A stretch of 64,000 nucleotides of DNA from Paludibacteraceae bacterium (GTDB lineage Bacteria > Bacteroidota > Bacteroidia > Bacteroidales > Paludibacteraceae), in contig JAFUVS010000013.1 in NCBI GenBank assembly GCA_017471175.1, positions 53,347 through 117,346 on the forward strand, in the 5' to 3' direction. The position numbers were made by a program, and so were the translations under genes. Numbering within the stretch: the stretch's first letter is position 1; each line of letters begins with the position of its first letter. This document shows positions 1-14,882 of this stretch, one piece after another. The notes beneath the pieces are model-generated. The model saw nothing but the letters and a program-made list of their open reading frames with translations, had not been told where the DNA came from and did not search any database.

Positions 1-2640
1 TCTATCCGGACTCTGAGCGAGACTCCGCCTGCAACTACTCTGGCGGGTACTTTCCAATATATCAACAAATCCACGTGTGTTCTTTATGTGCCGGCAGGCA
101 GCCTGAGTGCCTATCAAACCGCTGACGGATGGAAGGAATTCAAGAACATCCAGGAAAAAGGCGTAAACGAGAAAATCAAATACGGCAAACTCTATTACCA
201 ACTCAATGAAAACCTCACGGCATATGTGACCTGCGAGAAGAACGAACCTGGCAACTACGCCGCCCTTAATGGCGAAATTACAGTTGAAAAGACCGTTACA
301 TACCAAGGACTGGATTACACCGTGAATGATATCGGGTCCAATGCGTTCCGATATGCTACCGGCATCACCAAAGTGAACCTGCCTGCTATCATGGACGAGA
401 TACGGTCCATGGCATTCAACGGATGTTCCAACCTCGCACAAATCAATATCCCGGCTACGCTTACATGGCTGGACGATGACGCATTCGGTGGCACCAAACT
501 GTTCAATGACAACAAAGATGCCAACGGTGCGGTGTACTATGACGGCTGTCTCTTGGCGTTGACTGAGAAACTCTCAGGCGATTATACTGTTAAGGAAGGT
601 ACTTGGCTCATTGCTTCCAACGTCTTTATGGACCAAGACAATCTCACTTCCATCACCCTGCCCGAAGGACTGCAAGTGCTATGCAACAGTGCACTCTCGG
701 ATATGCTCAACTTAGAGACCGTTACATTGCCCTCATCGCTTCAATATATCGGCGGAGGATTCTTGCATAACTGTTATATGTTGGGTACGATATACAACTA
801 TGCCGAGGTGCCATACAACTTGTCGGATACCTATTGCTTCGACGGGGTGAATCAGGCGATGTGTACGCTCTACGTGCCCAAAGGCAGCAAGAACGGTTAT
901 TCCAATGCTGCCGAGTGGAAAAACTTCCCGATGATGGAGATGGAGCCTAAGTCCTTTACCGTTACCTTTGTGGACTACGACGGTACGGAACTGAAGACGG
1001 AGACCGTCGAGGTGGGAAATGCTGCAATTGAACCCTATGACCCGACACGGGAGGGATACACCTTCACCGGATGGGACAAAGAATTCGACAATATACAAGC
1101 CGACCAGACCGTTACCGCTCAATATGAGCAAAAGAAATATATTGTCATCTTCCTTGACTGGAACGGCAATCCGATAGATACGCAGGAAGTGCTGCACGGC
1201 GAGAGTGCCGTGGCACCTGCCGACCCGACACGAGAGGGACACACTTTCATCGGATGGGACAAAGAGTTCGACATCGTCAACGGCAGCATGAACGTGACAG
1301 CACAATACGCCGCCAAGGTATGGACTGTCACTTATCTCAACTGGGACGACTCGCTCATCGGCACCGAGCAGGTCGTCAACGGAGAAGATGCCAAGGGTAT
1401 GGTGGCCACGCGCGTCGGATGGATCTTCGGACAGTGGTACAATACCAAGAACTTCGAATATGTGGACCTGAAGAACATTACATCTGACTTGACCGTCAAA
1501 GCTGAATACAGCGGAGAAATCCTGTTCGACGTCACCTACCGCGTCAATGGGGAGACGACATTCCAGATTCAGGCTGTCTATGGCTTCGATGCACGCACCA
1601 TCTATTATAACCCGACCGAGTATCCGAAGATTCCTGAAAAAGAGTCCGACGACATGTACGACTACACTTTTGCCGGCTGGGAACCCGAAGTGACTTACGT
1701 CACGGATAACATCGTGCTCACGGCCGTCTTCGAGGCTACACCGCGCAAATTCACCGTCTCCTTCTACGACTGGGACGACAGCCTCATCGAGGAGCAGGAA
1801 GTGGCGTACGGCTCGGCAGCCGAGGCACCGACCCCCGAACGCACCGGCTACACCTTCACCGGTTGGGACAAGTCCGTTGGTTACATCACCGGCAACCTTA
1901 TCGTCAAAGCGCAGTACACCATCAACAGCTATTCCGTCACGTTCGTCGATTGGGACGATGCCGTACTGCGCACAGCGCAGATAGTGGAGTACGGCAGTGC
2001 CGCCGTTCCGCCTGCCGACCCTGTTCGCACAGGCTACACCTTCACCGGCTGGGATCAGGACTACAAGAACGTCACAGGCGACATGACCGTCAAAGCGCAA
2101 TACACCATCAACCAATACACTGTCCGTTTCCTCAACTGGGACGGCACGGTGCTGCAGAGCTCCGAATGGGAGTATAACAGCACGCCGGTCTATAGCGGCG
2201 AGACACCCGTCCGCTCTGAGGACGAGGAGAATACCTACGCCTTTGCCGGTTGGGACAAGGAGATAGCCGTTGCCACCGCTGCCGCCGACTACACCGCACA
2301 GTTCACCGCTACGACGAAAGCCGTCTATTTCACCGTCACCTACTATGACTGGGACCTAACCATCCTCGGCACGGAGCAAGTGGAGGAAGGGCATGACGCG
2401 CAGGGCTTGAACCCCGAACCGACCCGCGACGGCTATATCTTCACCGGCTGGTCCAAGCCGCTGACGAACATCACCTCCGACCTCAACGTACAAGCCACCT
2501 ACAAGGAGAACCCTGTAACGGGCATTGACGAAGCCGAAGCTGCCAAGATTGGCTGCTCCATAAAGGTACTCCGCGACGGCGTGCTCTACATTCTGCGCAA
2601 CGGAAAGACCTACAACGCCCAAGGACAAGTAGTGCAGTAA
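1..2640 (+). CDS. BspA-like secreted LRR / Listeria-Bacteroides-repeat protein (5' end outside window)
   Basis: The frame is open from base 1, so the 5' end with the signal peptide lies outside the window; the first codons already read as the end of a BspA-type leucine-rich repeat (CVLYVPAGSLSAY). A second LRR_5 block follows to about base 950 (repeated NIPATL, LPEGLQVL, LPSSLQYIG turns). From about 957 to 2500 there are eight copies of a ~60-residue beta-grasp B-repeat (Flg_new / Listeria-Bacteroides type) with the signature TxxGYTFTGWD and ending VKAQY. The C-terminus is a short module, VLRDGVLYILRNGKTYNAQG. Such proteins are usually exported and exposed at the surface, where they bind host or matrix ligands; the ligand here is unknown. 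Family call is firm, function is inferred. Confidence 0.9.
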   Translation, partial: SIRTLSETPPATTLAGTFQYINKSTCVLYVPAGSLSAYQTADGWKEFKNIQEKGVNEKIKYGKLYYQLNENLTAYVTCEKNEPGNYAALNGEITVEKTVTYQGLDYTVNDIGSNAFRYATGITKVNLPAIMDEIRSMAFNGCSNLAQINIPATLTWLDDDAFGGTKLFNDNKDANGAVYYDGCLLALTEKLSGDYTVKEGTWLIASNVFMDQDNLTSITLPEGLQVLCNSALSDMLNLETVTLPSSLQYIGGGFLHNCYMLGTIYNYAEVPYNLSDTYCFDGVNQAMCTLYVPKGSKNGYSNAAEWKNFPMMEMEPKSFTVTFVDYDGTELKTETVEVGNAAIEPYDPTREGYTFTGWDKEFDNIQADQTVTAQYEQKKYIVIFLDWNGNPIDTQEVLHGESAVAPADPTREGHTFIGWDKEFDIVNGSMNVTAQYAAKVWTVTYLNWDDSLIGTEQVVNGEDAKGMVATRVGWIFGQWYNTKNFEYVDLKNITSDLTVKAEYSGEILFDVTYRVNGETTFQIQAVYGFDARTIYYNPTEYPKIPEKESDDMYDYTFAGWEPEVTYVTDNIVLTAVFEATPRKFTVSFYDWDDSLIEEQEVAYGSAAEAPTPERTGYTFTGWDKSVGYITGNLIVKAQYTINSYSVTFVDWDDAVLRTAQIVEYGSAAVPPADPVRTGYTFTGWDQDYKNVTGDMTVKAQYTINQYTVRFLNWDGTVLQSSEWEYNSTPVYSGETPVRSEDEENTYAFAGWDKEIAVATAAADYTAQFTATTKAVYFTVTYYDWDLTILGTEQVEEGHDAQGLNPEPTRDGYIFTGWSKPLTNITSDLNVQATYKENPVTGIDEAEAAKIGCSIKVLRDGVLYILRNGKTYNAQGQVVQ

Positions 2641-2653
2641 CCTTGGAAGGACT

Positions 2654-2704
2654 AAATCAATCAGCCCTGACGGAAAATGTTTTGCTGTCGGGGCTGATTG
2701 ATTT
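2654..2704. terminator. Bidirectional terminator hairpin
   Basis: Perfect 14-bp arms (AAATCAATCAGCCC at 2654-2667 and its complement at 2691-2704), with further TGAC/GTC pairing inside. It lies 14 nt after the stop of the LRR protein and also at the 3' end of the minus-strand ATPase remnant, so it can serve both strands. Confidence 0.75.
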
Positions 2705-2823
2705 ACATAAACAGGTCGTCAAGCACCACCTCACTTTGTACATCTCCTGCATACTCGTTAGGTAGCAGTCCGAACGTGGTAATCATCGTCAGATACAGTG
2801 CTTTTTTTATGACTTACGGCGCA
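2703..2823 (-). pseudogene. C-terminal remnant of an AAA+ ATPase (DUF4143/ATPase_2-like)
   Basis: The minus strand reads [20 protein letters not shown], then VQSEVVLDDLFM and a TAA at 2703-2705. From memory, this Thr-Thr-x-Gly-Leu...QSxVxLDDLF ending is typical of the AAA+ ATP-binding proteins abundant in Bacteroidales, often near mobile DNA. Only about 35 residues remain; upstream of a run of seven A the frame meets a stop, and shifting by one base would extend it. There is no start and no Walker motif, so it is a fragment. The family assignment rests on the terminal motif only. Confidence 0.55.
2721..2823. repeat. 103-bp direct repeat, copy A
   Basis: 103 bp that recur at 8357-8459 in the same orientation with four substitutions and no gap. 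It covers most of the ATPase C-terminal remnant, but unlike copy B it keeps the natural DDLFM-stop ending just outside the repeat, so copy A is the more complete one. Confidence 0.9.
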
Positions 2824-2830
2824 ACACTAC

Positions 2831-3290
2831 TGTCCACTAAAAAATGGACGATTAAAAATTTAAGTCAGACAATAACGGTTCACTTGAATCAAGACGTTCT
2901 TTGTCATTTTGAAAATTAGTTCTGTTGAGCAACTCCGTAAGGTGCATTTTGTTCGTCAGTGATACACTCAAAACGTGTAAAAGTTCATACGTTGTCAGCT
3001 TAAGTTTCATATCGTGTTGCACAATCGCCACCAAACAATAAGCGTAAGTAACTGATTCCAACAGGTATAATGCTTGATATAATGGTCACCGTTATACCTG
3101 GCTACTATACGTCTGAACTTATCCTCGTTGATAAACTCTATAATTTGTGAGAAGATGTATTTGACTTGATTCATAAGTAGATGTGATTTTATCTACAAGA
3201 TTACAAAATCAAATCGTCGCGCACAAATTATCGCTGTAACAAACTAATTTTCAATACGTCAAAGAACAATGTCTAAATTTTTAGTGGACA
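2831..3290 (-). mobile_element. Internally deleted IS4-family (DUF4372-type) insertion element
   Basis: A 460-bp segment bounded by perfect 13-bp inverted repeats (TGTCCACTAAAAA at 2831-2843, its complement at 3278-3290). On the minus strand an ATG at 3174 opens MNQVKYIFSQIIEFINEDKF, continuing with YIKHYTCWNQLL, the typical N-terminus of Bacteroidota IS4 transposases with a DUF4372 domain. It then jumps, with a change of frame, to YCLVAIVQHDMKLKLTTYEL and an ending KERLDSSEPLLSDLNF (stop at 2852), the typical C-terminus. The central catalytic part, roughly 0.9 kb in full-length relatives, is missing. No clear target-site duplication is visible. It cannot encode a working transposase but keeps both ends, so it could be mobilised in trans. 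Confidence 0.85.
2852..3174 (-). pseudogene. IS4-family transposase, central part deleted
   Basis: N-terminal ~45 residues (start ATG at 3174) and C-terminal ~60 residues of a DUF4372/IS4 transposase joined by an out-of-frame deletion near base 3055. The DDE catalytic core is absent. Confidence 0.8.
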
Positions 3291-3313
3291 CTAATGATAT
3301 TACTAACATAATG

Positions 3314-3347
3314 AAAGAACGCGTGTAAATGTGTACGCGCGTTCTTT
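3314..3347. terminator. Terminator hairpin
   Basis: Perfect 10-bp arms AAAGAACGCG (3314-3323) and CGCGTTCTTT (3338-3347), followed on the plus strand by TCGTTTTG. It lies just 3' of the minus-strand gene remnant ending at 3377 and is best read as that gene's old terminator. Confidence 0.6.
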
Positions 3348-3376
3348 TCGTTTTGCCCTGTATGTATCCAATTAGA

Positions 3377-3547
3377 TTATTTCACCTCTTGTCCTTGTAG
3401 CGTGTAGGTCTTGTCACCACGGAGGATGTAGATTTGACCGTCACGGACAAGTTTGTTTGTCATGTTGTGTGCATTCCCACTATTGACTATCTCTATTGCC
3501 TCGCTTGCTTCCAACGGCCACACAACAGACAAAACAAGAGCGGCAAA
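3377..3547 (-). pseudogene. C-terminal remnant of a secreted protein with the YILRGDKTYTLQGQ module
   Basis: Read on the minus strand from 3547 to a TAA at 3377-3379, the frame ends NKLVRDGQIYILRGDKTYTL then QGQEVK. This is the same short C-terminal module as in the 5'-partial LRR protein (end 2640) and in the decayed gene ending at 18925. Upstream, the frame gives a hydrophobic stretch (AALVLSVVWPLEA), then a TGA at 3548-3550, and there is no ATG. Either the rest was lost by deletion, or a very short secreted protein has lost its start. A terminator hairpin still stands downstream. Confidence 0.6.
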
Positions 3548-3636
3548 TCAGATTTGCCGGGAAAGGAAAAAGACTCCAACCTGCTCGGTGGTGGAGCAGG
3601 CTGGAGAGAAGAATGTGGCTCGGCAAATGTGCCGAG
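3541..3636. repeat. Cluster of three short hairpins
   Basis: Three inverted repeats in a row: 3541-3559 (CGGCAAAT / ATTTGCCG, loop of 3), 3576-3604 (CCTGCTC / GAGCAGG extended by CCA/TGG, loop of 7) and 3619-3636 (CTCGGCA / TGCCGAG, loop of 4). The first and third share the octamer CGGCAAAT. No gene covers them. From 3637 to 3725 I see only weaker foldback sequence. Confidence 0.6.
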
Positions 3637-3725
3637 AGTTAAACCGACACATCGGGTTATCGATAGAGCGAAAGGGGGATCGAAAAATCCAGAGAGTTTT
3701 GACAGCTGGCACTAATCCAAAAGAT

Positions 3726-4319
3726 TTAATGAGTTCCTATTAAAGAAGGGTGAATTTCTGCGAGTGAACGCTCAAATAGTTCCATAATTGGTTTGCATTC
3801 TTGCGGAAAAACATACACATGTAGTTTAAATACCATCTTATGGTTTCCAGCCCACATATCAAGATGTAAACCATGTTGGTCTGTTTGTTCATGATACCCA
3901 AGATGATTCATTATTCTACTAACTATATTATCAGATTTACCCACATACAAAGTATTGTCTTTAGGGAAAGCATATTTGACAGTTCTCGGTGTTTGAATAG
4001 TTGTATTTTCTTTTATGCTCTTGACCTCATTTTTAATAGTTTCTACCAATTCTTTCGACAGAATATCTGGCGATATGATTTCCCAACGATATAGACATGG
4101 AAAAGCATCATAATGTTTCAGCCATCCAAACATATCTTTGAATGGGGCAGCTGTCCGCACATCAATACCGTCCGTTAGATTAGGTAGATATTGGTGATTT
4201 AGATTCTCACTCTTTATTTCAAATGTATTAGTGTCTACGATGCCGCATTTAGCGACCAATTGAAATAAAGTGCTGTAATATTCAGCATTGATTTTGAAGA
4301 TTTCTTCCGGTGTTTTCAT
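3726..4319 (-). CDS. GIY-YIG-like domain protein, partner of the upstream membrane protein
   Basis: 197 aa. The C-terminal half (about residues 115-195) fits a divergent GIY-YIG nuclease fold: a first strand VKYAFP, then TLYVGKS in place of YIG, an alpha helix with Arg and His (SRIMNHLG), and a late helix with Glu and Pro (ELFERSLAEIHPSLIG). In the family the Tyr, Arg and Glu are catalytic and cut DNA with a metal ion. The N-terminal ~110 residues match nothing I recognise. Its ATG overlaps the stop of the upstream gene by 4 bases (ATGA), implying translational coupling and a joint function. No signal peptide or membrane segment. Nuclease activity is plausible, not shown. Confidence 0.6.
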   Translation of the reverse strand: MKTPEEIFKINAEYYSTLFQLVAKCGIVDTNTFEIKSENLNHQYLPNLTDGIDVRTAAPFKDMFGWLKHYDAFPCLYRWEIISPDILSKELVETIKNEVKSIKENTTIQTPRTVKYAFPKDNTLYVGKSDNIVSRIMNHLGYHEQTDQHGLHLDMWAGNHKMVFKLHVYVFPQECKPIMELFERSLAEIHPSLIGTH

Positions 4320-5755
4320 ATTAAAATCCTTTCTATTTCTTCTGGCGTTGGGAAACTCTGCAAATCATTTTCGTCAAGGAACAATACTTTGGTGTTTTTT
4401 AAGTTTGTCTGTTCCCGTTCAATGTTGATACGGTCTGTTTTATTAGAATTATCTACTATGCGTGAGAATTCATGAGGAATAATTGCGGAACAAGTCAAAT
4501 ATCTATACCCCATCCATGTGTATTCCGGGAGTTTTCCGAAATATGCCCATGTGTCTTTATTGAGAATAATGATTACTTTAGGTCTAATCACTTCTTCAAT
4601 CATATTTTGGGATAGACACACTTGCTCTATAATATAGTTAAACATTTGCGGATTCAGTACTACTTGTTGATTAGCTATTTGATGGTTACTTTCTCTAAAA
4701 CTGAACAAATCAATATATGCAGCCCTATCACGCAGATCTGTTTGAGAAGAGACTAACATCTTTTTAATAGCCTCTCTATCAGGCAATTGGTATACTTGCT
4801 GATTTCCTACTTTTTCACCTTTATCGAAAGAAGGGTTATAGCCAACAAGTAAAATGTCCTTTTGTGTTGAATTGTGGCATATATGATATCCACGTCGCAT
4901 AATTTCATTAGAGTTACCATATTTATCCCACAAGTAATCATGTTCAGTTTGCATAATTTCATTGGGATCTATAGTGGCTTCTTCTTCGGATGTTTGTGTC
5001 TCAACAGCTATAGCAGGTGCTATTTCTCCCGATTTCTGTACCATTTGCTGTTTTTTCTCTTTCCGTTTTTTATGCACATTAGAAATTAAGGCGTTCACCT
5101 GGTAAAAGAATGCGATATATATTCTTAAGGCTATTACACATATAACACCGAACCAAAACAAACAAATATACAGATAATTATCATATGTAATTTGATCTTG
5201 ATACCATTCGTATGCAGATTCTATTCCTAAATAAATTAATCCTATTACTATCGGTAGTATCATTAGTAGGAGAAATGATAATTTTCCAATAATTTTGCGC
5301 CAGGTAGCAATGTATTGCACCCATTTGAAATACCATATGTCACGATGGAATGGATTTTGACGTTCCAGCAATGTAACACCATGCTTGAATTTGGAAAAGA
5401 GAGTATCAGTGAATTGATTTCGCATTCTATTTTCTTTCCCTTCTTCATCAGATGCAATAATAGTATTCCAACTCTCCGCTTTTAACTGGATAGCCATATC
5501 GTGTAATTGTTCCACAAGATTTTTCTCATCTTCAGCAAACTCAACACTACGTACAGAATCGGCATTTCCTAATATGGCGGAATGTAGAGAATTCAATTGT
5601 GCCTCTTCAGCGAGGTGTTGACGACGACTTGCAGTCTCTGCACGAATGTGCTTAATCGGTCTTGCCCAGTTCTCTCCAAAAACTGCATTACTTAATCTGT
5701 CTGCTGTGTTCTGACCTGCTCTGCGCCAGAAACCGCGTGAAAAACTATTACTCAT
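4316..5755 (-). CDS. Two-helix membrane protein with possible uracil-DNA-glycosylase-like C-terminal domain
   Basis: 479 aa from the ATG at 5755; an upstream in-frame GTG at 5782 is possible but adds only a hydrophobic tail. A charged N-terminal region (~1-155) precedes two strong membrane helices at about 160-185 (FLLLMILPIVIGLIYLGI) and 197-222 (YLYICLFWFGVICVIALRIY), then a basic stretch (KKRKEKKQQ). The C-terminal ~190 residues look like a soluble alpha/beta domain: KDILLVGYNPSFD resembles the first motif of uracil-DNA-glycosylases, followed by AAYIDLFSFRE and RPKVIIILNKDTWAYFG. The glycosylase link is tentative. The downstream GIY-YIG-like gene overlaps by 4 bases. The topology suggests a DNA- or nucleotide-binding domain tethered inside the membrane. 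Confidence 0.5.
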   Translation of the reverse strand: MSNSFSRGFWRRAGQNTADRLSNAVFGENWARPIKHIRAETASRRQHLAEEAQLNSLHSAILGNADSVRSVEFAEDEKNLVEQLHDMAIQLKAESWNTIIASDEEGKENRMRNQFTDTLFSKFKHGVTLLERQNPFHRDIWYFKWVQYIATWRKIIGKLSFLLLMILPIVIGLIYLGIESAYEWYQDQITYDNYLYICLFWFGVICVIALRIYIAFFYQVNALISNVHKKRKEKKQQMVQKSGEIAPAIAVETQTSEEEATIDPNEIMQTEHDYLWDKYGNSNEIMRRGYHICHNSTQKDILLVGYNPSFDKGEKVGNQQVYQLPDREAIKKMLVSSQTDLRDRAAYIDLFSFRESNHQIANQQVVLNPQMFNYIIEQVCLSQNMIEEVIRPKVIIILNKDTWAYFGKLPEYTWMGYRYLTCSAIIPHEFSRIVDNSNKTDRINIEREQTNLKNTKVLFLDENDLQSFPTPEEIERILI

Positions 5756-5804
5756 ATTGATTATTAATAAAAGTGTGAACACTCTGTTTATTGGTATATT
5801 CGGG

Positions 5805-5897
5805 CTTCGACTCCCATGGTTTCCAATATATGCAGAAAGTCCACACTCACGGTGTGAACATTCGCTATATTAGGAAAACCATTACAATGTGTCGAAG
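5805..5897. repeat. Imperfect long inverted repeat (MITE-like or cruciform)
   Basis: The gene-free stretch 5756-6055 holds a 93-bp imperfect palindrome. CTTCGAC (5805-5811) and ATGGTTTCCAATATAT (5816-5831) pair with ATATTAGGAAAACCAT (5867-5882) and GTCGAAG (5891-5897), and a small CACAC/GTGTG hairpin sits at the centre. Nothing coding is visible in it. Confidence 0.5.
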
Positions 5898-5997
5898 ATT
5901 GAATATATCCTTAATAAAGCAAATGCTTATTTTATATGTTGTTTGTCTTTTGTTTTATGCCATAGGCAGATTTTTGTTTGTTGTATATTTGTTTTTA

Positions 5998-6017
5998 ATC
6001 GACCAAATGTGGTCGAT
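5998..6017. other. Perfect 8-bp hairpin 3' of the DUF1016 gene
   Basis: ATCGACCA and TGGTCGAT around a 4-base loop, 38 bases beyond the stop of the minus-strand nuclease. There is no U-run on the minus strand, so it may be a transcript-stabilising hairpin rather than a terminator. Confidence 0.4.
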
Positions 6018-6055
6018 ACTTTCTCTGTCGGTGTTTGTCAGAGAGGGACGTGTAT

Positions 6056-7141
6056 TTAGTTATCTTGTTGCAGGCGATAGATTTCTTTCTGCCGTTCGAT
6101 CTCACGACGGAGTTCTTCTTCTGTTGGCATATAGGTCAGATATTTCGCCGCATACAGCTGTTTGCTGTCATTCAAAATGGAATACCGCGCAATATCTTTA
6201 CTTGTTTCCGCACAAAGCAATAAACCAATTGTAGGATTGTCACCCTCCGTGCGCCGCAAGTCATCAAACATACGGATGTACATATCCATCTGACCTATAT
6301 CTTGGTGCGTAATAGTGGTCGTTTTCAGGTCCACAAGGAAATAACATTTAAGAACCACATTGTAGAACACCAAGTCCACATAATAATCTCCGGTATCGGT
6401 TGCTATATGATATTGCTCGCTCATAAACGCGAACCCGCGTCCCATCTCAAGCAGAAACTCCTTTAAGTGCTGAATGATTGCTCGTTCAAGATCTGATTCA
6501 GTATAGTTCGTATTTGCCGGCAGTTGCAGAAATTCAGCCACCATCGGGTTCTTGATAAACTCGTCTTTATCTTGCTGAAACGGTGCTGTCAGTTGCTGCA
6601 TTTCCGCTATAACATCGTTTTTCGTCGGAGCTTGCAGCAGACGGTAGTAATACTGCGAACCGATGTTTCTATCCAACGTGCGCGTACTCCACATTTCTTG
6701 CGAGGCTTCTCTCAAATACCAATAACGGGCATTCTCATCCGCTACCCGCAACAGGCTTCGGAAATGTGTCCATTTTAGATTTGGTACGCGTGCGTGCCAA
6801 ATTTCCAAATCGCTGAAATACAGATATAATTGCCGATAGTTACGCAAGTCGCGTGCCGTAAACCCCGACGCATACTCAAGCGACAAATCTTTTGCCAATG
6901 AATTCAGCAGTTGCGTTCCGTACTCGGCGCGTTTTTCTCCGTGTTGTTCCTCCTCTACAATGCGCCTGCCGATCTGCCAATAGGTATTGACCATCACCAT
7001 ATCTACCTCTTGGTACGCCTTGCGTAATCCGTCTTCTATAATACGGCGGACATCCGTAAGCAAGGCTTCGAAAGATTTGGTACGCGTGTGTGCCAAATCT
7101 TGGAGAAGAGGTGTTTGATTGGATATGTCTGATGATTTCAT
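6056..7141 (-). CDS. DUF1016 (YhcG-like) PD-(D/E)XK nuclease
   Basis: 361 aa. The N-terminal domain is the DUF1016_N helical region (YWQIGRRIVEEEQHGEKRAEYG, shortened here, then LSLEYASGFTARDLRNYRQLY). The C-terminal half is the YhcG nuclease core: DYYVDLVFYN, FLVDLKTTTITHQDIGQMDMY and PTIGLLLCAE, placing a candidate Asp...(D)xK active site around residues 250-280. Relatives travel with restriction systems and mobile DNA; their biological target is not settled. The gene starts 22 bases after the broken small gene 7164-7460 and probably shared its promoter. Length is normal for the family and no lesions are visible. Confidence 0.85.
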   Translation of the reverse strand: MKSSDISNQTPLLQDLAHTRTKSFEALLTDVRRIIEDGLRKAYQEVDMVMVNTYWQIGRRIVEEEQHGEKRAEYGTQLLNSLAKDLSLEYASGFTARDLRNYRQLYLYFSDLEIWHARVPNLKWTHFRSLLRVADENARYWYLREASQEMWSTRTLDRNIGSQYYYRLLQAPTKNDVIAEMQQLTAPFQQDKDEFIKNPMVAEFLQLPANTNYTESDLERAIIQHLKEFLLEMGRGFAFMSEQYHIATDTGDYYVDLVFYNVVLKCYFLVDLKTTTITHQDIGQMDMYIRMFDDLRRTEGDNPTIGLLLCAETSKDIARYSILNDSKQLYAAKYLTYMPTEEELRREIERQKEIYRLQQDN

Positions 7142-7163
7142 AGGCGGTAATTGTTTTCGTTAT

Positions 7164-7460
7164 TTATTTGTTCCTTGTATTATCTGCATCATATTGTTGT
7201 CTTTCTTGCCGTGCTTGACGGATTTCATCATTGATGTCCTCAAGCGTCATTTCGGAATTACCGTTTAACTCACTTATACGCCTCATTGAAGCGACAGCTG
7301 CACGCGCGTTGCGTCTGACTGTCTGTTGCGCCGTGTTGTACTCAATCAACAATGCCTCGACTTGTCTTTGCAGTCAAGCCGTCATATCCGTCTCGTTCGC
7401 AAACGACCGGCGTGTGCGCTGAACGAGTTCGTCGTCTAATGATAGATTGTACATACACAT
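7164..7460 (-). pseudogene. Small antitoxin-like gene interrupted by an in-frame TGA
   Basis: From the ATG at 7460 (or a second at 7454) the frame reads MYNLSLDDELVQRTRRSFAN, then ETDMTA, an in-frame TGA at 7374-7376, then continues without change of frame LQRQVEALLIEYNTAQQ to a stop at 7164. One base change from TGG (Trp) to TGA explains it. The whole would be about 98 aa, with a start like a ribbon-helix-helix strand and a charged helical tail, as in many type II antitoxins; that class is a guess. A good promoter lies upstream. The downstream half (62 aa) could still be made from an internal start. Confidence 0.65.
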
Positions 7461-7493
7461 ACGTTATTTCCTCCTATTTAGATAATTACGCTG

Positions 7494-7525
7494 CAAATGT
7501 ACGACTTTTTTGGCATATTTGCAAA
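7494..7525 (-). promoter_or_regulatory. Bacteroidota-type promoter for the 7460-6056 gene pair
   Basis: On the minus strand, TACATTTG (7501-7494) is preceded after 20 bases by TTTG (7525-7522). This matches the TTTG / TAnnTTTG consensus, 34 bases upstream of the first ATG. Confidence 0.7.
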
Positions 7526-7568
7526 TAATTAGTTAATTTTCTTGAATTTTTAATGGTTTAAGTCGGTT

Positions 7569-8132
7569 TTATTGTTGCTGAGTTGTTTTTAACTCTTGGT
7601 AAATCATGGCACGTATGAAGGCTGGGAGTTGGAGGTAACGCTTGGGGTTGCCTGTTTGAGGGTCGATGGGGGCTTGCGGGTCGGGGTGTCTGCCACGGAT
7701 ATTGGGGAGCTGTTGCGTGTAGCGAGCACGGAAGTCGTTGTAGAGTTGCAGGGCTTCTTCGGGAGTGTAGTAGTCGGGAATATGGCTGGTCAGTTTGATA
7801 ACGCGTTCCACTTCGGCATGGGCTTGACGTTCCTCGGGCGTGAGGTCCGGGTCTTGGCTTGTGCCTTTGACGCTCTTGGGCTGACCGGCGGCGAGTATCT
7901 GAGAGGTGCGGTGGCACGCTTCACGCCAGCGGTTGTGGTGCTTCAGTTCTTCGCCCTTGGGTGGGTTCTTCTTGAAATCGCGAGGATGACGGACAGCATA
8001 CGCTTCTTGCTTGCCTTCGTGTATGATTCTGCCTTTTTCGTCCCGGTACTTCTTCTGACGGCTGATAATGCCGTGTTTTTCAATCGCTTCGTGAATCTCG
8101 TCGAACGGAATTTGTAGTTTGACTTCTGCCAT
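7569..8132 (-). CDS. Hypothetical 187-aa charged protein
   Basis: 187 aa, hydrophilic, no signal peptide and no membrane segment. The N-terminal half is basic (RQKKYRDEKGRIIHEGKQEA, then FKKNPPKGEELKHHNRW); the C-terminal half is Pro- and Gln-rich (YYTPEEALQLYNDFRARYTQ, DPQAPIDPQTGNP). I do not recognise a domain. The lysine-rich start could suit nucleic-acid or ribosome binding, but that is a guess. It is monocistronic, with its own promoter about 135 bases upstream and a paired 12-bp direct repeat between promoter and ATG. An antisense open frame of similar length exists and is taken to be a shadow. Confidence 0.6.
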   Translation of the reverse strand: MAEVKLQIPFDEIHEAIEKHGIISRQKKYRDEKGRIIHEGKQEAYAVRHPRDFKKNPPKGEELKHHNRWREACHRTSQILAAGQPKSVKGTSQDPDLTPEERQAHAEVERVIKLTSHIPDYYTPEEALQLYNDFRARYTQQLPNIRGRHPDPQAPIDPQTGNPKRYLQLPAFIRAMIYQELKTTQQQ

Positions 8133-8203
8133 ATTGATAGGTTGTTTGGGTTTGTCGGATGCTATTCTGTCGGTATGGTGGAGTGTCGGTGTGATTAGCC
8201 GAG

Positions 8204-8298
8204 TAACATACGAATATCATAGGAATAACATACGAATCACATAAGATATGTTGCTGCAATATGGCTGCAAAGATACTGCTTTTTTGCGAGAGATGCAA
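8204..8298 (-). promoter_or_regulatory. Promoter with a paired 12-bp direct repeat
   Basis: On the minus strand TATCTTTG (8275-8268) has TTG (8298-8296) 20 bases upstream, a good Bacteroidota promoter for the 8132 gene. Between it and the gene lie two copies of TAACATACGAAT (plus-strand 8204-8215 and 8226-8237), 22 bp apart, about two helical turns, as for an operator or tandem regulator site. Confidence 0.5.
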
Positions 8299-8356
8299 TA
8301 GGTTTGGCGGAGTTTTGTGCTTGATTGAGTGATTTTTGTGTGGATTTGTTATAGAA

Positions 8357-8459
8357 AAGCACCACCTCACTTTGTACATCAACTGCATACTCGTTAGGTA
8401 GCAGTCCAAACGTGGTAATCATCGTCAGATGCAGTGCTTTTTTTATGACTTACGGCGCA
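8357..8459. repeat. 103-bp direct repeat, copy B
   Basis: 99 of 103 bases equal copy A at 2721-2823, in the same orientation. Here the ATPase-like reading is cut right after EVVL and the following bases are unrelated, so the repeat was placed or truncated here independently. Confidence 0.9.
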
Positions 8460-8468
8460 GGTATAAAA

Positions 8469-8497
8469 AAAGATGTGCCTTTGGTTGGCACATCTTT
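8469..8497 (-). terminator. Terminator after tRNA-Ser(UGA)
   Basis: Perfect 11-bp arms AAAGATGTGCC (8469-8479) and GGCACATCTTT (8487-8497), followed on the minus strand by TTTTATAC. A near-identical hairpin core recurs at 56559-56580. Confidence 0.75.
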
Positions 8498-8498
8498 G

Positions 8499-8583
8499 CG
8501 GAAAGAGAGGGATTCGAACCCCCGGACCCGTTAAGGTCAACGGTTTTCAAGACCGCCGCGATCGACCACTCCGCCATCTTTCC
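8499..8583 (-). tRNA. tRNA-Ser(UGA)
   Basis: 85-nt class II tRNA on the minus strand. The acceptor GGAAAGA pairs with TCTTTCC, the anticodon loop reads TCTTGAAAA (anticodon TGA), a long variable arm is present and GGTTCGAATCC forms the T arm. CCA is not encoded. Confidence 0.95.
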
Positions 8584-8994: not shown

Positions 8995-9002
8995 TACTTT
9001 TG
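8995..9002 (+). promoter_or_regulatory. -7 box for the PASTA-rluD-porX operon
   Basis: TACTTTTG, 48 bases before the ATG at 9051, back to back with the lipoprotein promoter. The -33 element is poor. Confidence 0.55.
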
Positions 9003-9050
9003 CCCGATTTTTGACGTTTTGACAACTCTACATTTAATTTTCCTGACTAA

Positions 9051-9893
9051 ATGGCTACAAAACAGACTTATAAGACCGACAAAGAGGGTATGCCCTTTTG
9101 GAAGGTCATTCTCATTAACCTTGGTATAGCCCTTATCATAGTGGTTGTGCTGTTGGTTGTGCTCAAGGGTTGGCTCAACCGTTACACGGAGCACGGGGTG
9201 GAGGTGGAGGTGCCTCAAATCACGGGGTTGACCGTGGAAGAGGCGCAGATTCTGCTGCAAGGCGAATCGCTGCGGATAGAGGTGATTGACTCCACGTACT
9301 CATCGAAGGTGCCGCTCGGCACGGTGGTAGAGCAGTCGCCCGCGCCGGTGAGCCACGTGAAAAAAGGACGTACTATTTATGTGGTGATGAATGCCCGCCA
9401 GCGTCGGAAAGTGGCTGTGCCTCAACTTGCGGATGTACCTTACCGTCAGGCAGAAAGCACATTGCGCCAAGTAGGTTTGATTCCCACCGGACTGGTTTAT
9501 CAGCCTTCTGCTTACCGCGACCTTGTACTTGATATTCTCTCGGAAGACAGCACATCTATTCCTGCCGGAACGATGCTCACGGAGAACACGCCCGTCATCC
9601 TTGTAGTAGGTCAGGGTTTGGGTACGGCGCAGGTCATCACGCCTGATTTGAGAGGATTGAGCCTGCAAGACTGCCGTTCACTGCTTTTGGCTGCACATCT
9701 GACGCTCGGCACCGTCACTTACGACATTGAGCCTACGGACGAGAACAGGAACTTGTACGTGGTCTATGACCAGCAACCGGCATCGGGCAGTCGGCTGACG
9801 GAAGGAGAAACGGTGAACATCAACCTCTCAACCGACCGCGATAAAGCCGCCACCGTCAAACCGGCGGAGGACTCGGAGGAAGAGTTTTTCTAA
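9051..9893 (+). CDS. Membrane-anchored PASTA-domain protein
   Basis: 280 aa. A short cytoplasmic N-terminus, one membrane helix (about 18-41, VILINLGIALIIVVVLLVVL) and three PASTA domains (about 50-115, 118-190, 195-265) with the usual VPxLxGLxxxEAxxLL turns and QxPxxGxxLxxGxxV endings. PASTA domains bind muropeptides or unlinked peptidoglycan in penicillin-binding proteins and Ser/Thr kinases; here there is neither a kinase nor a transpeptidase domain, so it is probably a periplasmic wall sensor or scaffold. It leads a run of four genes (38 bases to rluD) going on to porX, a co-occurrence I have seen in Bacteroidales genomes. The acidic tail EDSEEEFF is notable. Confidence 0.9.
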   Translation: MATKQTYKTDKEGMPFWKVILINLGIALIIVVVLLVVLKGWLNRYTEHGVEVEVPQITGLTVEEAQILLQGESLRIEVIDSTYSSKVPLGTVVEQSPAPVSHVKKGRTIYVVMNARQRRKVAVPQLADVPYRQAESTLRQVGLIPTGLVYQPSAYRDLVLDILSEDSTSIPAGTMLTENTPVILVVGQGLGTAQVITPDLRGLSLQDCRSLLLAAHLTLGTVTYDIEPTDENRNLYVVYDQQPASGSRLTEGETVNINLSTDRDKAATVKPAEDSEEEFF

Positions 9894-9931
9894 CCGCTTA
9901 TTTTACATTTCTACAGACAGAAAGAGAGACG

Positions 9932-10957
9932 ATGGACGACTTGTGGGAGCGCTTCCATATTGAAGTGGACAAGGGGCAGACCCCTGTGCGAATCGACAAG
10001 TACCTGACCGAACACATGGCAGGTACTTCGCGCAACCGCATCCAAGCCGCAGCGGAGAGCGAGCATATCACCGTGAACGGTACGCCCGTGCGCTCCAACT
10101 ACAAGGTGAAGCCGTTTGACGACATACGCATATTGTTAGACCACGAGCCGATAGACCCGACCATCACGCCCGAAAACATACCGCTCACGGTCGTCTATGA
10201 GGATGACGATGTATTGGTCATCAACAAGCAGGCGGGGTTGGTGGTTCATCCGGGACACGGCAATTACGAGCATACACTGCTGCACGCGTTAGCCTACTAT
10301 TTTGAGCAAAAGAACGCATCGCTTGACATTAACAATCCCGAAATAGGTCTGGTTCACCGTATCGACAAGGACACGTCGGGTCTGTTGCTGATAGCCAAGA
10401 CACCGGATGCGAAGACACGGTTAGGGCAGCAGTTCTTTGACCATACGACGGAGCGGACGTACCAAGCGCTTGTATGGGGGACATTCCGCGAAGAGGAGGG
10501 GACGGTGAGCGGCGCGTTGGCACGGGATTTGAGTGATCGTACACGATACCGTATCTACAGCCTTGAAGATAATCCGGAAGCCAAAGCCGCTGTAACACAT
10601 TGGCGCGTGGCAGAACGCTTTCCATACGTTACATTGGTCGAATGCAGGCTTGAGACGGGACGGACGCATCAGATACGCGTGCACATGCAGAGTCTCGGAC
10701 ACCCGCTGTTCAACGACGAGAAATACGGCGGAACGGAAATATTGAAAGGGCTGCCAACGCAAAAGTATAAACAGTTTATTCACAACTGTTTCGAGATTTG
10801 TCCTCGTCAGGCGTTGCACGCCAAGACGCTCGGCTTTACCCACCCTCGGACGGGCGAACGGATGTTTTTCAACAGCGACTTGCCCGAGGATATGTCTAAC
10901 CTACTAAACAAATGGCGCAACTATGGAACCTACACTCAAACAGATACTTTGGGCTGA
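9932..10957 (+). CDS. rluD: RluD-family 23S rRNA pseudouridine synthase
   Basis: 341 aa. N-terminal S4 RNA-binding domain (about 17-70: VRIDKYLTEHM, ITVNGTPVRSNYKVK), then the pseudouridine synthase fold with the catalytic motif HRIDKDTSGLLLIAKT, Asp at residue 145, plus GRTHQIRVHMQSLGHPLFND. It converts uridines in the 23S rRNA helix 69 region to pseudouridine. Length and domain order match RluD/RluC/RluA family II enzymes; the S4 domain favours RluD or RluC. The last 35 bases overlap the start of porX in another frame, so the two are tightly linked. Confidence 0.9.
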   Translation: MDDLWERFHIEVDKGQTPVRIDKYLTEHMAGTSRNRIQAAAESEHITVNGTPVRSNYKVKPFDDIRILLDHEPIDPTITPENIPLTVVYEDDDVLVINKQAGLVVHPGHGNYEHTLLHALAYYFEQKNASLDINNPEIGLVHRIDKDTSGLLLIAKTPDAKTRLGQQFFDHTTERTYQALVWGTFREEEGTVSGALARDLSDRTRYRIYSLEDNPEAKAAVTHWRVAERFPYVTLVECRLETGRTHQIRVHMQSLGHPLFNDEKYGGTEILKGLPTQKYKQFIHNCFEICPRQALHAKTLGFTHPRTGERMFFNSDLPEDMSNLLNKWRNYGTYTQTDTLG

Positions 10958-12479
10958 CGATGAGATTCAGCTATTGCAACCGTATGTGCTTTTTCTTCGC
11001 GAGAAAGGCTACGAAGTGACTCCTGTCTGCAGCGGTCAGGATGCGATTGACGCGTGTGAGGAGCGGACGTTTGACATCGTGTTCTTGGACGAGCAGATGC
11101 CCGGAATGAGCGGTATTGAGACACTGCAGGAACTCAAACGGCTGCATCCCGAAACGCCTGTGGTGATGATAACCAAGAGCGAAGAAGAGAACATAATGGA
11201 GCAAGCTATCGGGCAACAGATAGCCGACTACCTGATTAAGCCGGTCAATCCGAATCAGATATTGCTCTGCCTGAAGAAGCATATTCAGAGCCGTCAGTTG
11301 GTGGCAGAGCAGACGAACAAGACGTACAGGGAGGAGTTTACGGACATCGCTTATATGATTGATACGGCGCGCACGTTTGAGGAGTTTGTGAGCATCCATA
11401 AATCACTGAATCGATGGGACTTGCAGTTGCAGGACGTGCAGTCGCCGATGCGCGATATGCTGCTGCAGCAACGCGAGCAAGCCAATACGGCGTGGGCTAA
11501 ATGGGTGATCAGGAACTATGAGTCGTGGTTTACTACTCCCGTTCCTGCCGACCGTCCGCTGTTGTCGCCCGATGTGTTCAAACGCAAAGTCTTTCCGCTG
11601 TTGGACAAGGGTGAGAAAGTATTTGTGATTGTGATTGACAATTTCCGCTACGACCAATGGAAAACTATTCAGCCGCTGCTTAACGAGCTGTTTACCGTAG
11701 ATGAGGAGCAGATTTATTGTTCTATTCTGCCCACGGCGACCCAGTATGCGCGCAATGCGATTTTCTCGGGGCTGATGCCGGAACAAATCCGCCAGATGCA
11801 CCCCGACCTATGGGTGTCAGAAGAGGACGAAGAGGGCAAGAACCTGAACGAGAAAGAACTCATACAGAACCAATTAGACCGATTCCGCAAGCGGTACGGA
11901 AATACGTACTATAAGATTAACGAGAGCGACTTCTGCGAGAAGATTACCAAGCAGATCGGCGGGCTGCAAACGCCTCTGAACGTGGCGGTAATCAACTTTA
12001 TTGATATGCTTTCGCACGCGCGAACCGACTCGAAGATGATGCGTGAGTTGTGCAACAACGAGAGTGCCTACCGGTCGCTGACGTTGTCGTGGTTTCAACA
12101 TTCTCCCACAAAGGCTTTTCTTGCTCGCATAGCGCGTTTGGGGTACAAAGTGGTGCTGACTACGGACCACGGTACGGTGCGCGTGACGAATCCCGTACCT
12201 ATCGTGGGAGACAAGAACACGAACACGAACCTGCGTTACAAGGAGGGCAAGGCACTCTCTTGTCAGTCGAAGAACGTGTATGAGGTCAAGCAGCCGCTTC
12301 GGATAGGTTTGCCGTGTCCGAATGTGAGTACGAGTTACGTTTTCTGCACGGGGAACGACTTTTTCGGGTATCCGAACAACTTCAACTACTATGCGCAGAT
12401 TTATCGCAACACGTTCCAGCACGGCGGTATATCGATGGAGGAGATGCTCATTCCGCTTGTAACGCTGTCGCCGAAATAA
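10923..12479 (+). CDS. porX: PorX-type response regulator with alkaline-phosphatase-like effector domain
   Basis: 518 aa. Residues 1-120 are a CheY receiver (ADDE at 11-14, phosphoacceptor Asp56 in FLDEQMPG, Lys106 in YLIKPVNP). A helical linker follows, then an alkaline-phosphatase superfamily (PglZ-like) domain from about 215: FVIVIDNFRYDQW, ILPTATQYARNAIFSGLMP, VAVINFIDMLSHART and VVLTTDHGTVRV supply the metal-binding residues. PorX is the response-regulator partner of PorY and works with the sigma factor SigP in control of the type IX secretion system; the effector domain hydrolyses (oligo)nucleotides in studied members. porY and sigP are not in the window. Presence here implies the organism has a T9SS, in line with the CTD proteins at 33.7-38.2 kb. 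Confidence 0.93.
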   Translation: MEPTLKQILWADDEIQLLQPYVLFLREKGYEVTPVCSGQDAIDACEERTFDIVFLDEQMPGMSGIETLQELKRLHPETPVVMITKSEEENIMEQAIGQQIADYLIKPVNPNQILLCLKKHIQSRQLVAEQTNKTYREEFTDIAYMIDTARTFEEFVSIHKSLNRWDLQLQDVQSPMRDMLLQQREQANTAWAKWVIRNYESWFTTPVPADRPLLSPDVFKRKVFPLLDKGEKVFVIVIDNFRYDQWKTIQPLLNELFTVDEEQIYCSILPTATQYARNAIFSGLMPEQIRQMHPDLWVSEEDEEGKNLNEKELIQNQLDRFRKRYGNTYYKINESDFCEKITKQIGGLQTPLNVAVINFIDMLSHARTDSKMMRELCNNESAYRSLTLSWFQHSPTKAFLARIARLGYKVVLTTDHGTVRVTNPVPIVGDKNTNTNLRYKEGKALSCQSKNVYEVKQPLRIGLPCPNVSTSYVFCTGNDFFGYPNNFNYYAQIYRNTFQHGGISMEEMLIPLVTLSPK

Positions 12480-12489
12480 TCACGTCACC

Positions 12490-13371
12490 TTGCGCAAGTT
12501 TTTCAAGATATTGTTTGTGTGTGCGTTCGTCTGTCTGATAGGTGCATGTTTTCTGCTTGTGTCGCACGGTTTTTTGTACGGAAAGCAGACCGCACCTGTC
12601 AGCCATAGACTGAGCATCATGACGTACAACACGCACGGAATGGGTATGGCTCGCAAAACGGCGAAGAACGCTGTGATTCAGTTTCTTCAGAAGGCTGATG
12701 CCGATGTGCTGTGCTTGCAGGAGGTGGATGTATATAAGAGCAGCGAACACCTGACGCTCAACGAATTGAGGAAGGCTTTGGCGCATTATCCATATACGTA
12801 TTTCGACTTCAAGGTGTATAACAGCCGCCATCAGTTCGGGAATGCCGTATTTTCGCGTTACCCGCTGATAAACAAGCATACGATACGTTATCCGTCGCGC
12901 GCCAATATCAGCAGTTGCTGCGATGTGGTGGTAGAAGGGGACACGATTCGTCTGTTTACCAATCATTTGGAGTCGTATCGGTTCAGTCAGAGCGAGATGG
13001 ATTCGGTGGCGGCACATCCTTTTCGTTCGGACTCTGCTTTGCAGCACAAGGTATGGTCGGCGAGTCGCAGCCGCTTTCGTCAAGCACGCATCGTGGCGGA
13101 CTCCATAGCCGTTTCGCCCTATCCTGTTCTTTTGGTCGGGGACTTGAACTCGACACCAGTATCACCCACGTATCTGCTATTACGCCGGCATTTACGGGAC
13201 GCTTTTTTGGAATGTTCATCGCTGCGCTTGGGCAACACATTCAAGAAGGGGAGATTCGGCGTAAGAATTGACTATATCCTTCATTCGGAGGGGCTGCATC
13301 CTGTTTCCTGCCGTACGCTCCACACGGATGCATCAGATCATTTGCCGGTGCGAGCGGAGTTGGTGTGGTAA
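12490..13371 (+). CDS. Membrane-anchored endonuclease/exonuclease/phosphatase (EEP) family protein
   Basis: 293 aa. An N-terminal membrane segment (about 5-27) leads into a periplasmic or cytosol-facing EEP domain with all hallmark motifs: MTYNTHG, LQEVD (metal Glu), TNHLES (Asn/His), GDLNSTPVS (Asp/Asn) and the terminal SDHLPV (Asp/His). Family members hydrolyse phosphodiesters in DNA, lipids or inositol phosphates; the substrate cannot be read from sequence. The start is taken at TTG 12490, ten bases after porX, because the hydrophobic N-terminus begins there and no ATG precedes it in frame nearby. It is probably last in the PASTA-rluD-porX operon; a terminator follows at 13396. Confidence 0.85.
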   Translation: MRKFFKILFVCAFVCLIGACFLLVSHGFLYGKQTAPVSHRLSIMTYNTHGMGMARKTAKNAVIQFLQKADADVLCLQEVDVYKSSEHLTLNELRKALAHYPYTYFDFKVYNSRHQFGNAVFSRYPLINKHTIRYPSRANISSCCDVVVEGDTIRLFTNHLESYRFSQSEMDSVAAHPFRSDSALQHKVWSASRSRFRQARIVADSIAVSPYPVLLVGDLNSTPVSPTYLLLRRHLRDAFLECSSLRLGNTFKKGRFGVRIDYILHSEGLHPVSCRTLHTDASDHLPVRAELVW

Positions 13372-13395
13372 GGTCATAGGGCATAAGAGATAGGC

Positions 13396-13431
13396 AAAAA
13401 ACACATTCGAAGAGATGGGAATGTGTTTTTT
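13396..13431 (+). terminator. Intrinsic terminator of the porX operon
   Basis: AAAAAACACATTC (13396-13408) pairs with GAATGTGTTTTTT (13419-13431); the run of eight T completes a classic terminator. Confidence 0.85.
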
Positions 13432-13485
13432 TTAGTTTGCAAAGTGAAAATTGCAAATTTATTTTTTTATACCGAAAAGTCGCCG

Positions 13486-13493
13486 TACTTTTG
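13486..13493 (+). promoter_or_regulatory. -7 box of gdhA
   Basis: TACTTTTG followed by GCGG, 45 bases upstream of the gdhA ATG. No convincing -33 TTTG at normal spacing. Confidence 0.6.
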
Positions 13494-13538
13494 CGGTGTT
13501 GTTAACCAAATAACCAACATTATTAACTTATTTTTAGC

Positions 13539-14882
13539 ATGAAAACAGCTGAAATTATGCAGCGTCTTGCTGCGAAGCATCCGGGCGAGGCAGAGTATCT
13601 GCAGGCCGTTCAGGAAGTTCTCGAGTCAATCGAGGAAGTGTATAACCAGCACCCTGAATTTGAGAAGGCTCAGATTGTAGAGCGTATGGTGGAGCCGGAT
13701 CGTATCTTTACGTTCCGTGTAACTTGGGTAGATGACAAGGGTCAGGTACAGACAAACCTCGGCTACCGTGTTCAGTTCAACAGCGCGATTGGTCCGTACA
13801 AGGGCGGTTTGCGTTTCCACAAGGCTGTTACACCGAGTATGCTGAAGTTCTTGGGCTTTGAGCAGACGTTCAAGAACGCTCTGACGACTCTCCCGATGGG
13901 CGGCGGCAAAGGCGGTTCGGACTTCGACCCCGTAGGCAAATCAGATGCTGAGATTATGCGTTTCTGCCAGGCGTTTATGCTGGAGTTGTGGCGTTGCATC
14001 GGTCCTGACCAGGACGTACCTGCCGGTGACGTAGGTGTAGGCGGTCGCGAGATCGGTTTCCTGAACGGTATGTATCAGAAGCTGGCTCGTCAGTATCATA
14101 CGGGCGTTCTGACCGGCAAGGGCATGACTTTCGGCGGTTCGGTACTTCGTCCTGAGGCTACCGGTTTCGGTGCGCTGTACTTCACGCAGCACATGCTTCA
14201 CAAAGCAGGCAAGGATATCAAGGGTATGCGCGTAGCATTGTCCGGCTTCGGTAATGTGGCTTGGGGTGCTGCAACGAAGGCTGTTCAACTTGGTGCGAAA
14301 GTTGTAGCTATCTCGGGTCCGGACGGCGTATGCGAAATCAAGGACGGAATCACTCCCGAAATGATTGACTATATGCTGGATATGCGTGCTTCGAACCACA
14401 ACAAAGTGGAAGAGATGGCACAGAAATTCCCCGCACAGGCCAAGTTCACCGCCGGTAAGAAATCGTGGTCTATTCCTTGCGACATCGCTATGCCGTCAGC
14501 ATTCCAGAACGAGTTGAGCCTCGAGGATGCGAAGGAGTTGGAGAAGAACGGCTGCAAGATCTGCGCTGAGATTTCGAATATGGGTTGCCAAGCCGATGCT
14601 ATTCACTATATGCAGAAACAAGGCTTCCTGTTTGCTCCGGGTAAAGCCGTTAACGCAGGCGGCGTAGCGACCTCCGGCTTGGAGATGACGCAGAACGCCG
14701 AGCACCTGACATGGAAAGGCGAGGAAGTAGATGAGCGTCTGCACCACATCATGGAGTCGATTCACGAGCAGTGCGTTAAGTTCGGCACACAAGCCGACGG
14801 TCACGTGGACTACGTGAAGGGCGCGAACATCGCGGGCTTTATGAAAGTGGCTACCGCTATGCTTGAGCAAGGCATCATCTAA
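13539..14882 (+). CDS. gdhA: NADP-type glutamate dehydrogenase
   Basis: 447 aa, the standard length of the bacterial hexameric GDH. It catalyses 2-oxoglutarate + NH4+ + NAD(P)H to glutamate, the main ammonium entry route in Bacteroidota. The substrate domain shows IGPYKGGLRFH and LPMGGGKGGSDFDP with the catalytic-site Lys at about residue 124; the dinucleotide domain has VALSGFGNVAWGAA (GxGxxxxxA). The C-terminus KVATAMLEQGII is normal. NADP versus dual coenzyme use cannot be decided by eye. Single-gene transcription unit with its own -7 box and terminator. Confidence 0.96.
   Translation: MKTAEIMQRLAAKHPGEAEYLQAVQEVLESIEEVYNQHPEFEKAQIVERMVEPDRIFTFRVTWVDDKGQVQTNLGYRVQFNSAIGPYKGGLRFHKAVTPSMLKFLGFEQTFKNALTTLPMGGGKGGSDFDPVGKSDAEIMRFCQAFMLELWRCIGPDQDVPAGDVGVGGREIGFLNGMYQKLARQYHTGVLTGKGMTFGGSVLRPEATGFGALYFTQHMLHKAGKDIKGMRVALSGFGNVAWGAATKAVQLGAKVVAISGPDGVCEIKDGITPEMIDYMLDMRASNHNKVEEMAQKFPAQAKFTAGKKSWSIPCDIAMPSAFQNELSLEDAKELEKNGCKICAEISNMGCQADAIHYMQKQGFLFAPGKAVNAGGVATSGLEMTQNAEHLTWKGEEVDERLHHIMESIHEQCVKFGTQADGHVDYVKGANIAGFMKVATAMLEQGII

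Follow-up and report, generated by a model that had tools for sequence, protein, structure and literature searches.

Two genes of a Paludibacteraceae bacterium, here called A and B, lie on the minus strand of the window (the whole stretch of 64,000 nucleotides that was analysed). The features at and around the pair are the following:

4316..5755, minus strand: gene A, 479 amino acids, made up of a helical N part, a pair of predicted membrane helices and, at the C terminus, the possibly UDG-like domain U1
3726..4319, minus strand: gene B, 197 amino acids, predicted GIY-YIG nuclease with Y77, Y125, R135, H139 and E183
4316..4319, minus strand: ATGA stop/start overlap of A and B
5108..5293, minus strand: region of A that spans its two predicted membrane helices (hydropathy; residues about 155-178 and 194-216)
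4319..4957, minus strand: U1 domain of A, residues 267-479 (alignments A1/A8 and profiles)
4829-4843, minus strand: motif GYNPS of A, residues 305-309
6056..7141, minus strand: gene for a DUF1016/YhcG PD-(D/E)XK protein, upstream on the same strand and in the same segment
2721..2823, no strand: left copy of a 103-nt direct repeat that bounds the segment
8357..8459, no strand: right copy of the 103-nt direct repeat, 96% identical and 38 nt from tRNA-Ser
8498..8583, minus strand: tRNA-Ser(tga), right edge of the segment
2825..3296 (about), minus strand: IS relic, its ends inverted and its transposase-like frames interrupted by stops (by eye)

Both genes are intact open reading frames on the minus strand at these coordinates. 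The TGA of A (4318-4316) overlaps the ATG of B (4319-4317) in the sequence ATGA, and the four-base overlap described in an earlier, sequence-only reading of this DNA is thus borne out at 4316-4319. The mechanically defined frame of A opens at a GTG at 5782; aligned relatives speak for a start at the ATG at 5755. The same reading had seen in A two membrane helices and a C-terminal domain with KDILLVGYNPS, and in B a pattern YVGKS...R...H...E/P. Hydropathy indeed gives two segments, the motif lies at residues 299-309 of A, and B carries LYVGKS...R...H...E. Upstream of A there are two similar 20-nt direct repeats (80% alike; window positions 5773-5792 and 5852-5871), possibly the site of a regulator or a product of chance.

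The DUF1016 nuclease that had been named as a neighbour is real (PF06250 at 6.2e-52 and PF17761 at 1.4e-40 in Pfam) and matches the PADLOC candidate PDC-S02. It is counted here as a neighbour of A and B. The IS relic nearby was likewise found, at about 2825-3296, with inverted ends and transposase-like frames that contain stops; it was matched to no family. The "broken antitoxin-like gene" (7164-7352) could not be confirmed; its Pfam matches were sub-threshold only.

The pair sits in a 5.6-kb, mostly AT-rich segment between the 103-nt direct repeats beside tRNA-Ser. The repeat occurs twice in the genome of the window (2721-2823 and 8357-8459) and in none of the 24 other genomes searched. From 2501 to 8500, ten of the 12 half-kb rows have a G+C content of 34-44%; the other two (47.6% and 51.8%) lie near YhcG and the gene of 187 amino acids. 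For comparison, the G+C content from 9001 to 14000 is 49-54%. Thirteen same-genus stretches of 6-17 kb around PASTA and RluD genes contained neither A, B or YhcG nor the ORFs of 62 and 187 amino acids or the left surface gene. tRNA-Ser was missing from them as well, hence the PASTA/RluD flank lacks synteny, and these 13 stretches yielded no empty site. An integrase-like gene was not noticed among the ORFs of the 5.6-kb segment, five of which were scanned with Pfam. Horizontal acquisition of the segment is likely rather than shown, as an empty site was not found.

By its sequence B is a GIY-YIG nuclease, for which DNA cleavage is predicted. This identity, already proposed from the pattern in B, is supported at the family level: the profile of the B family finds I-TevI first in the PDB, and the family has an invariant set of Y, Y, R, H and E residues. 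The single sequences gave PF01541 matches at E 0.0088 (B alone) and 0.00056 (the relative in L005), both under the Pfam cut-off. The B alignment has 11 rows; two weak matches with long frames (G763 and G612 of the phylum sample) were judged to be other GIY-YIG proteins and left out, and two further weak matches with stops were dropped. Eight columns are invariant in 11 of 11 rows, namely Y77, Y125, G127, R135, H139, L153, E183 and G195, and we take Y77, Y125, R135, H139 and E183 to be the catalytic set of GIY-YIG. The PDB search returned six matches at E up to 10. Two are I-TevI (1mk0, 2.4e-4, and 1ln0, 0.015); UvrC (1yd6, 0.35) and Eco29kI (3nic, 0.49) were found as well, neither significantly, and the rest are unrelated (1yv9, a hydrolase, 0.095; 6x89, a ribonucleoprotein-type chain, 0.86). 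Searched against the ORFs of the analysed loci, the profile matched L094 at 3e-7 and UvrC-type frames from 5e-4, in loci that had been pre-selected with PF01541. Aligned with a GIY-YIG set in hhalign, the B family scored 0.0006, some rows of the set being off-centre. Thus B keeps the catalytic residues of the I-TevI, UvrC and Eco29kI GIY-YIG domains but differs from them in having 48 residues between Y77 and Y125 and an N-terminal part of its own.

The two hydrophobic segments of A (about 155-178 and 194-216) carry basic residues on their outer flanks, which suggests, from hydropathy only, that the N part and the C-terminal domain are both cytoplasmic. Pfam matches of A to DUF6773, SDF and DUF4199 were at chance level and were rejected. 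A is modular, consisting of the N part and U1. The two are fused in five loci (the window, L016, L190, L244, L245) and adjoin as separate genes in L020; ten loci have U1 by itself (L007, which is a phage record, and L021, L022, L024, L046, L186, L187, L188, L189, L191), and the N part occurs without U1 in L018, L019, L241, L242 and L243. No obvious membrane helix was seen by eye in the fusion of L190. The N-terminal stretch NTGxxxSNxxFG of A also opens short proteins with hydrophobic ends (L241:1501-1896 and L242:1402-1956), one of which adjoins an ion-channel-like frame (by eye).

Is U1 a member of the UDG superfamily, as the sequence-only reading had proposed? The motif GxNP is kept; a significant profile match to UDG families is absent. 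In motif I of U1 (GxNPS), N41, P42 and S43 are conserved in at least 90% of 14 rows, the U1 of L016 lacking the motif (VGLYCNT). As a regular expression, the motif was present in 38 of 2634 mechanical ORFs of at least 100 amino acids (duplicate loci counted). Only three of these lie outside U1, two of them being MUG controls; the other four of the six MUG controls were missed. PF03167 had no match at E up to 1 in eight U1 members (window, L007, L020, L021, L022, L024, L244, L245), U1 profiles matched no UDG in the PDB, and searches of family libraries with A of the window and its relatives gave no UDG support for U1. In hhalign, U1 against six MUG proteins reached E 0.0017 with a probability of 15%, and with 16 U1 rows 0.0013 and 19% (range over runs 0.0013-0.002 and 14-19%); against Ung the value was 0.2. 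The alignment closer to MUG (A9) comprises eight of the 16 U1 rows. When U1 was compared with 280 single-sequence targets, two MUGs (0.0023 and 0.0038) ranked directly after ten family members; unrelated decoys appeared from 0.007, with the remaining MUGs among them (0.007-0.07) and a family-6 type protein at 0.1. U1 has no MUG-like motif II (NPSG); its C-terminal strand reads VLFT, VLFL or similar, without NPS or HPS (by eye). Single-sequence AlphaFold2 models, with a pLDDT of 43.9 for full A and 34.4 for the U1 domain alone, were too low for use. U1 thus has the GxNP motif in common with the MUG/TDG uracil-DNA glycosylases, two MUGs being its best non-family matches among the 280 targets, but it lacks both a PF03167 match and the NPSG second motif, and decoys score nearly as well. 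One motif and a weak MUG match are hints at a UDG-like domain that are only suggestive.

A further family was found, U2, with one member each in L016, L041, L243, L244 and L245 and two in L018 (alignments A7 and A10). Its opening motif, GxGNPxxxxLIxxKE, is loosely similar to that of U1; profiles gave no significant link to U1 or to UDGs. Homology of U1 and U2 is therefore unsupported, and U2 can be likened to UDGs by motif only. A match of U2 to BrxC (E 0.013) was rejected as chance-level. U2 directly follows the N-U1 fusion in L016, L244 and L245 (gaps of 11, 22 and 16 nt); hence B in the window occupies the position that U2 has in three other genomes. In L041 U2 comes after B, and in L243 it shares 4 nt with an N-like gene. 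Four of the six loci with both N and U1 (window, L016, L020, L190, L244, L245) have B (one locus) or U2 (three loci) directly downstream, and the gene links observed overall are N-U1, U1-U2, N-U2 and B-U2. The arrangement of fusion and U2 spans L244:2828-4943 and L245:3634-5749. PADLOC had no match for the scanned A, B, U1 and U2 proteins.

The neighbours of the relatives were assigned partly with Pfam and otherwise by eye. Ten relatives of B lie outside the window (L003, at a contig edge, L004, L005, L006, L037, L038, L039, L040, L041 and L042), and for four of them (L004, L005, L038, L042) Pfam named an R-M or Abi neighbour. The relative in L004 stands beside HsdS. In L005 (1318-1887) it overlaps the end of an HsdR-type gene (HsdR C-terminal domain) by ATGA and is followed by HsdM, as if this GIY-YIG protein were an accessory of its type I R-M system. 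A putAbiC gene directly precedes the relative in L038, where ResIII and PLD genes are found too, and the relative in L042 is near Abi_alpha, EVE and MmeI. The remaining settings include a divergent Schlafen-type helicase/GIY-YIG gene (L040), a nearby HD gene (L039) and a preceding gene without family (L037).

On the side of A, the fusion and U2 of L244 are flanked on one side by a D12 methylase and a DUF6996/6997/7226 protein and on the other by an N6_N4 methylase and a ResIII helicase, and those of L245 stand beside an NB-ARC protein and an integrase fragment. The N genes of L018 and L019 are each near a WYL gene, in L019 together with a PD-(D/E)XK gene (PF14281; PADLOC PDC-S26). Among the lone U1 genes, that of L024 has a PIN gene nearby and, at a distance of about 1 kb, a DUF4209 gene (PADLOC PDC-S39), and that of L191 occurs together with SPFH and TerB-like genes. 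Five of the ten lone U1 genes directly follow a surface-protein gene, with gaps of 1-30 nt: in L021, L186, L188 and L189 these are LRR, BACON or DUF4988-type genes, and in L187 the end of an LRR-type frame (below the cut-off). In L046 (6588-8244) U1 is followed by a gene of the endonuclease/exonuclease/phosphatase family (PF03372), an order that recalls base excision and incision. The human-faeces phage record MT835917 ends with U1 (L007:14323-15009) close behind a small membrane-protein-like ORF. The setting among defence genes claimed for the pair accordingly has a counterpart in four of ten B relatives and in the two loci L244 and L245, but most lone U1 genes are placed otherwise.

A was found beside B in the window only. 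In a sample of 393 genomes of the order, the A query matched nine genomes, three of them (G185, G274, G235) in the N part only, and the B query five. Three genomes have both, namely that of the window (G000), G184 and G221. The chance of three shared genomes is 8e-5, and of two, with the window's own genome left out, 0.002; both are hypergeometric values that assume independence, which related genomes violate. In G184 and G221 the A and B matches are on different contigs; those of G184 are weak (7.2e-5 and 5.8e-4), and B of G221 starts about 160 nt from a contig end. A profile search of genome contigs with a two-row B alignment gave one locus, that of G221. In the phylum sample U1 was found in two and B in nine of 395 genomes, two of the nine being judged other GIY-YIG proteins, and U1 and B were common only to the window's genome. 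Taking both samples, seven of ten genomes with an A-type match lack B, and ten of 13 with a B match (two doubtful) lack A. In the family of G290, U1 gave eight matches in seven of 56 genomes; the N part occurred in eight of 257 genomes, four of these matches being weak or partial. Plasmids held no match for A or B. Scans of the viral collection yielded no relative, and none was found by profile in the 76 loci picked out there by a pattern; among phages there was the one U1 of MT835917 for the A query and no match for B. As to whether the pair is inherited together, both families occur in three of 393 order genomes, with separate contigs in G184 and G221, and adjacency was seen in the window only; this neither establishes nor excludes that homologues of the two genes never go together, the outcome named earlier as a refutation.

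The A-B pair may be an undescribed defence module, its function being predicted, because some relatives of both A and B adjoin known virus-defence genes. Our preferred reading, held tentatively, is that the two genes are coupled in translation, were acquired horizontally and act as one membrane-tethered module against foreign DNA, in which A recognises and B cuts. A would be an inner-membrane protein whose two ends lie in the cytoplasm. U1, a probable descendant of the uracil-DNA glycosylases of the MUG/TDG branch, would recognise, and perhaps excise, an atypical base or structure in DNA that enters the cell. B, which A would bind or recruit, would then cut this DNA near the membrane, and the tethering could keep the nuclease off the chromosome. 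The sequence data establish the two genes with their overlap, the hydrophobic segments, the GIY-YIG family of B, the modularity of A and the gene links; we infer the UDG fold, the binding of A and B, the target and the function in defence. The ATGA overlap, the GIY-YIG profile, the links between N, U1, U2 and B, the R-M and Abi neighbours and the segment between 103-nt repeats argue for such a module. Against it stand the adjacency in the window only, the restriction of U1-B co-occurrence in the phylum sample to the window's genome, the lone U1 genes beside surface genes, the weak link between U1 and UDGs, the loss of the motif in L016 and the lack of a PADLOC match. A bolder version is excise-then-cut immunity at the inner membrane: a UDG-derived domain would remove or flip an unusual phage base, and a partner, B here and U2 elsewhere, would complete the attack, the partners being exchanged between bacteria. 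In this full form we consider it distinctly unlikely.

A and B could also be separate accessory genes that came to lie on one island by chance, U1 having a role at the envelope or surface and B being an orphan nuclease. The single case of adjacency, the surface-protein genes before five of ten lone U1 genes and the many genomes with one family only (seven of ten A-type genomes without B; ten of 13 B genomes, two doubtful, without A) fit this. It seems somewhat improbable, however, in view of the ATGA overlap, of the pairing of B with U2, itself the partner of three other A-type fusions, and of the three of 393 order genomes with both families (8e-5, or 0.002 without the window's genome, the nine A genomes including three with the N part only and kinship affecting both values). 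Another explanation, which we regard as unlikely, is a unit of toxin-guard or abortive type: B would harm host DNA, and A would be its membrane-bound restraint and sensor, releasing B when U1 binds a ligand such as a base or nucleotide. The L016 U1, without the asparagine of motif I, fits binding better than catalysis, and B relatives stand directly after putAbiC (L038) or near Abi_alpha (L042); yet others are inside type I R-M operons with no A-like gene alongside. Very improbable, finally, is a unit that serves the life of a mobile element itself (integration, exclusion of rivals) rather than host defence. The 103-nt repeats with a tRNA gene at the edge and the lone U1 gene in phage record MT835917 would be in line with this, but no integrase-like ORF was noticed in the 5.6 kb (five ORFs Pfam-scanned), and some relatives have R-M or Abi settings.

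If the preferred reading of A and B as a membrane-tethered module is true, two lines of recent work on bacterial immunity, on glycosylases against modified phage bases and on membrane-held nucleases, would meet in one exchangeable module. The analysis also marks out three protein families (N, U1 and U2) that are nameless in the libraries scanned, and B, a GIY-YIG family beside R-M and Abi genes, gains a testable role.

The literature matches listed contain no description of the A-B pairing, most subscription papers being outside their scope. Among known systems, AbiC/putAbiC (PF16872) is related by position, since a putAbiC protein directly precedes the B relative in L038; A itself, unlike these, has no putAbiC match in Pfam. 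The combination of membrane and GIY-YIG nuclease is known from SNIPE, which, according to PMC13190303, is held at the inner membrane, cuts phage DNA during injection and is toxic without its membrane anchor. As portrayed there, SNIPE combines DUF4041 and a single membrane helix close to the N terminus in one protein, and two membrane helices occur in 7% of its homologues. In the present pair anchor and nuclease are separate proteins, and the helices of A are at residues 155-216. Pfam scans of A and B at E up to 1 gave no DUF4041 match, and with two separate genes the pair was rejected as a SNIPE system. Brig1 and Brig3 are UDG-superfamily proteins that act against phages, according to PMC11078745 and PMC13160076, and base-excision restriction is reviewed in PMC10273834. 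The words "transmembrane" and "GIY-YIG" are absent from the texts of PMC11078745 and PMC13160076. By the description in PMC13160076, Brig3 forms with BapA a two-gene operon with overlapping frames. The likeness of the A-B pair to Brig lies in this layout and in a UDG-superfamily protein, here putative, in phage defence; the partner here is the nuclease B, whereas BapA is a glucosyl hydrolase. With SNIPE as a precedent for a membrane-held GIY-YIG nuclease and Brig1 and Brig3 for the UDG superfamily in defence, the A-B pair would be akin in principle to both.
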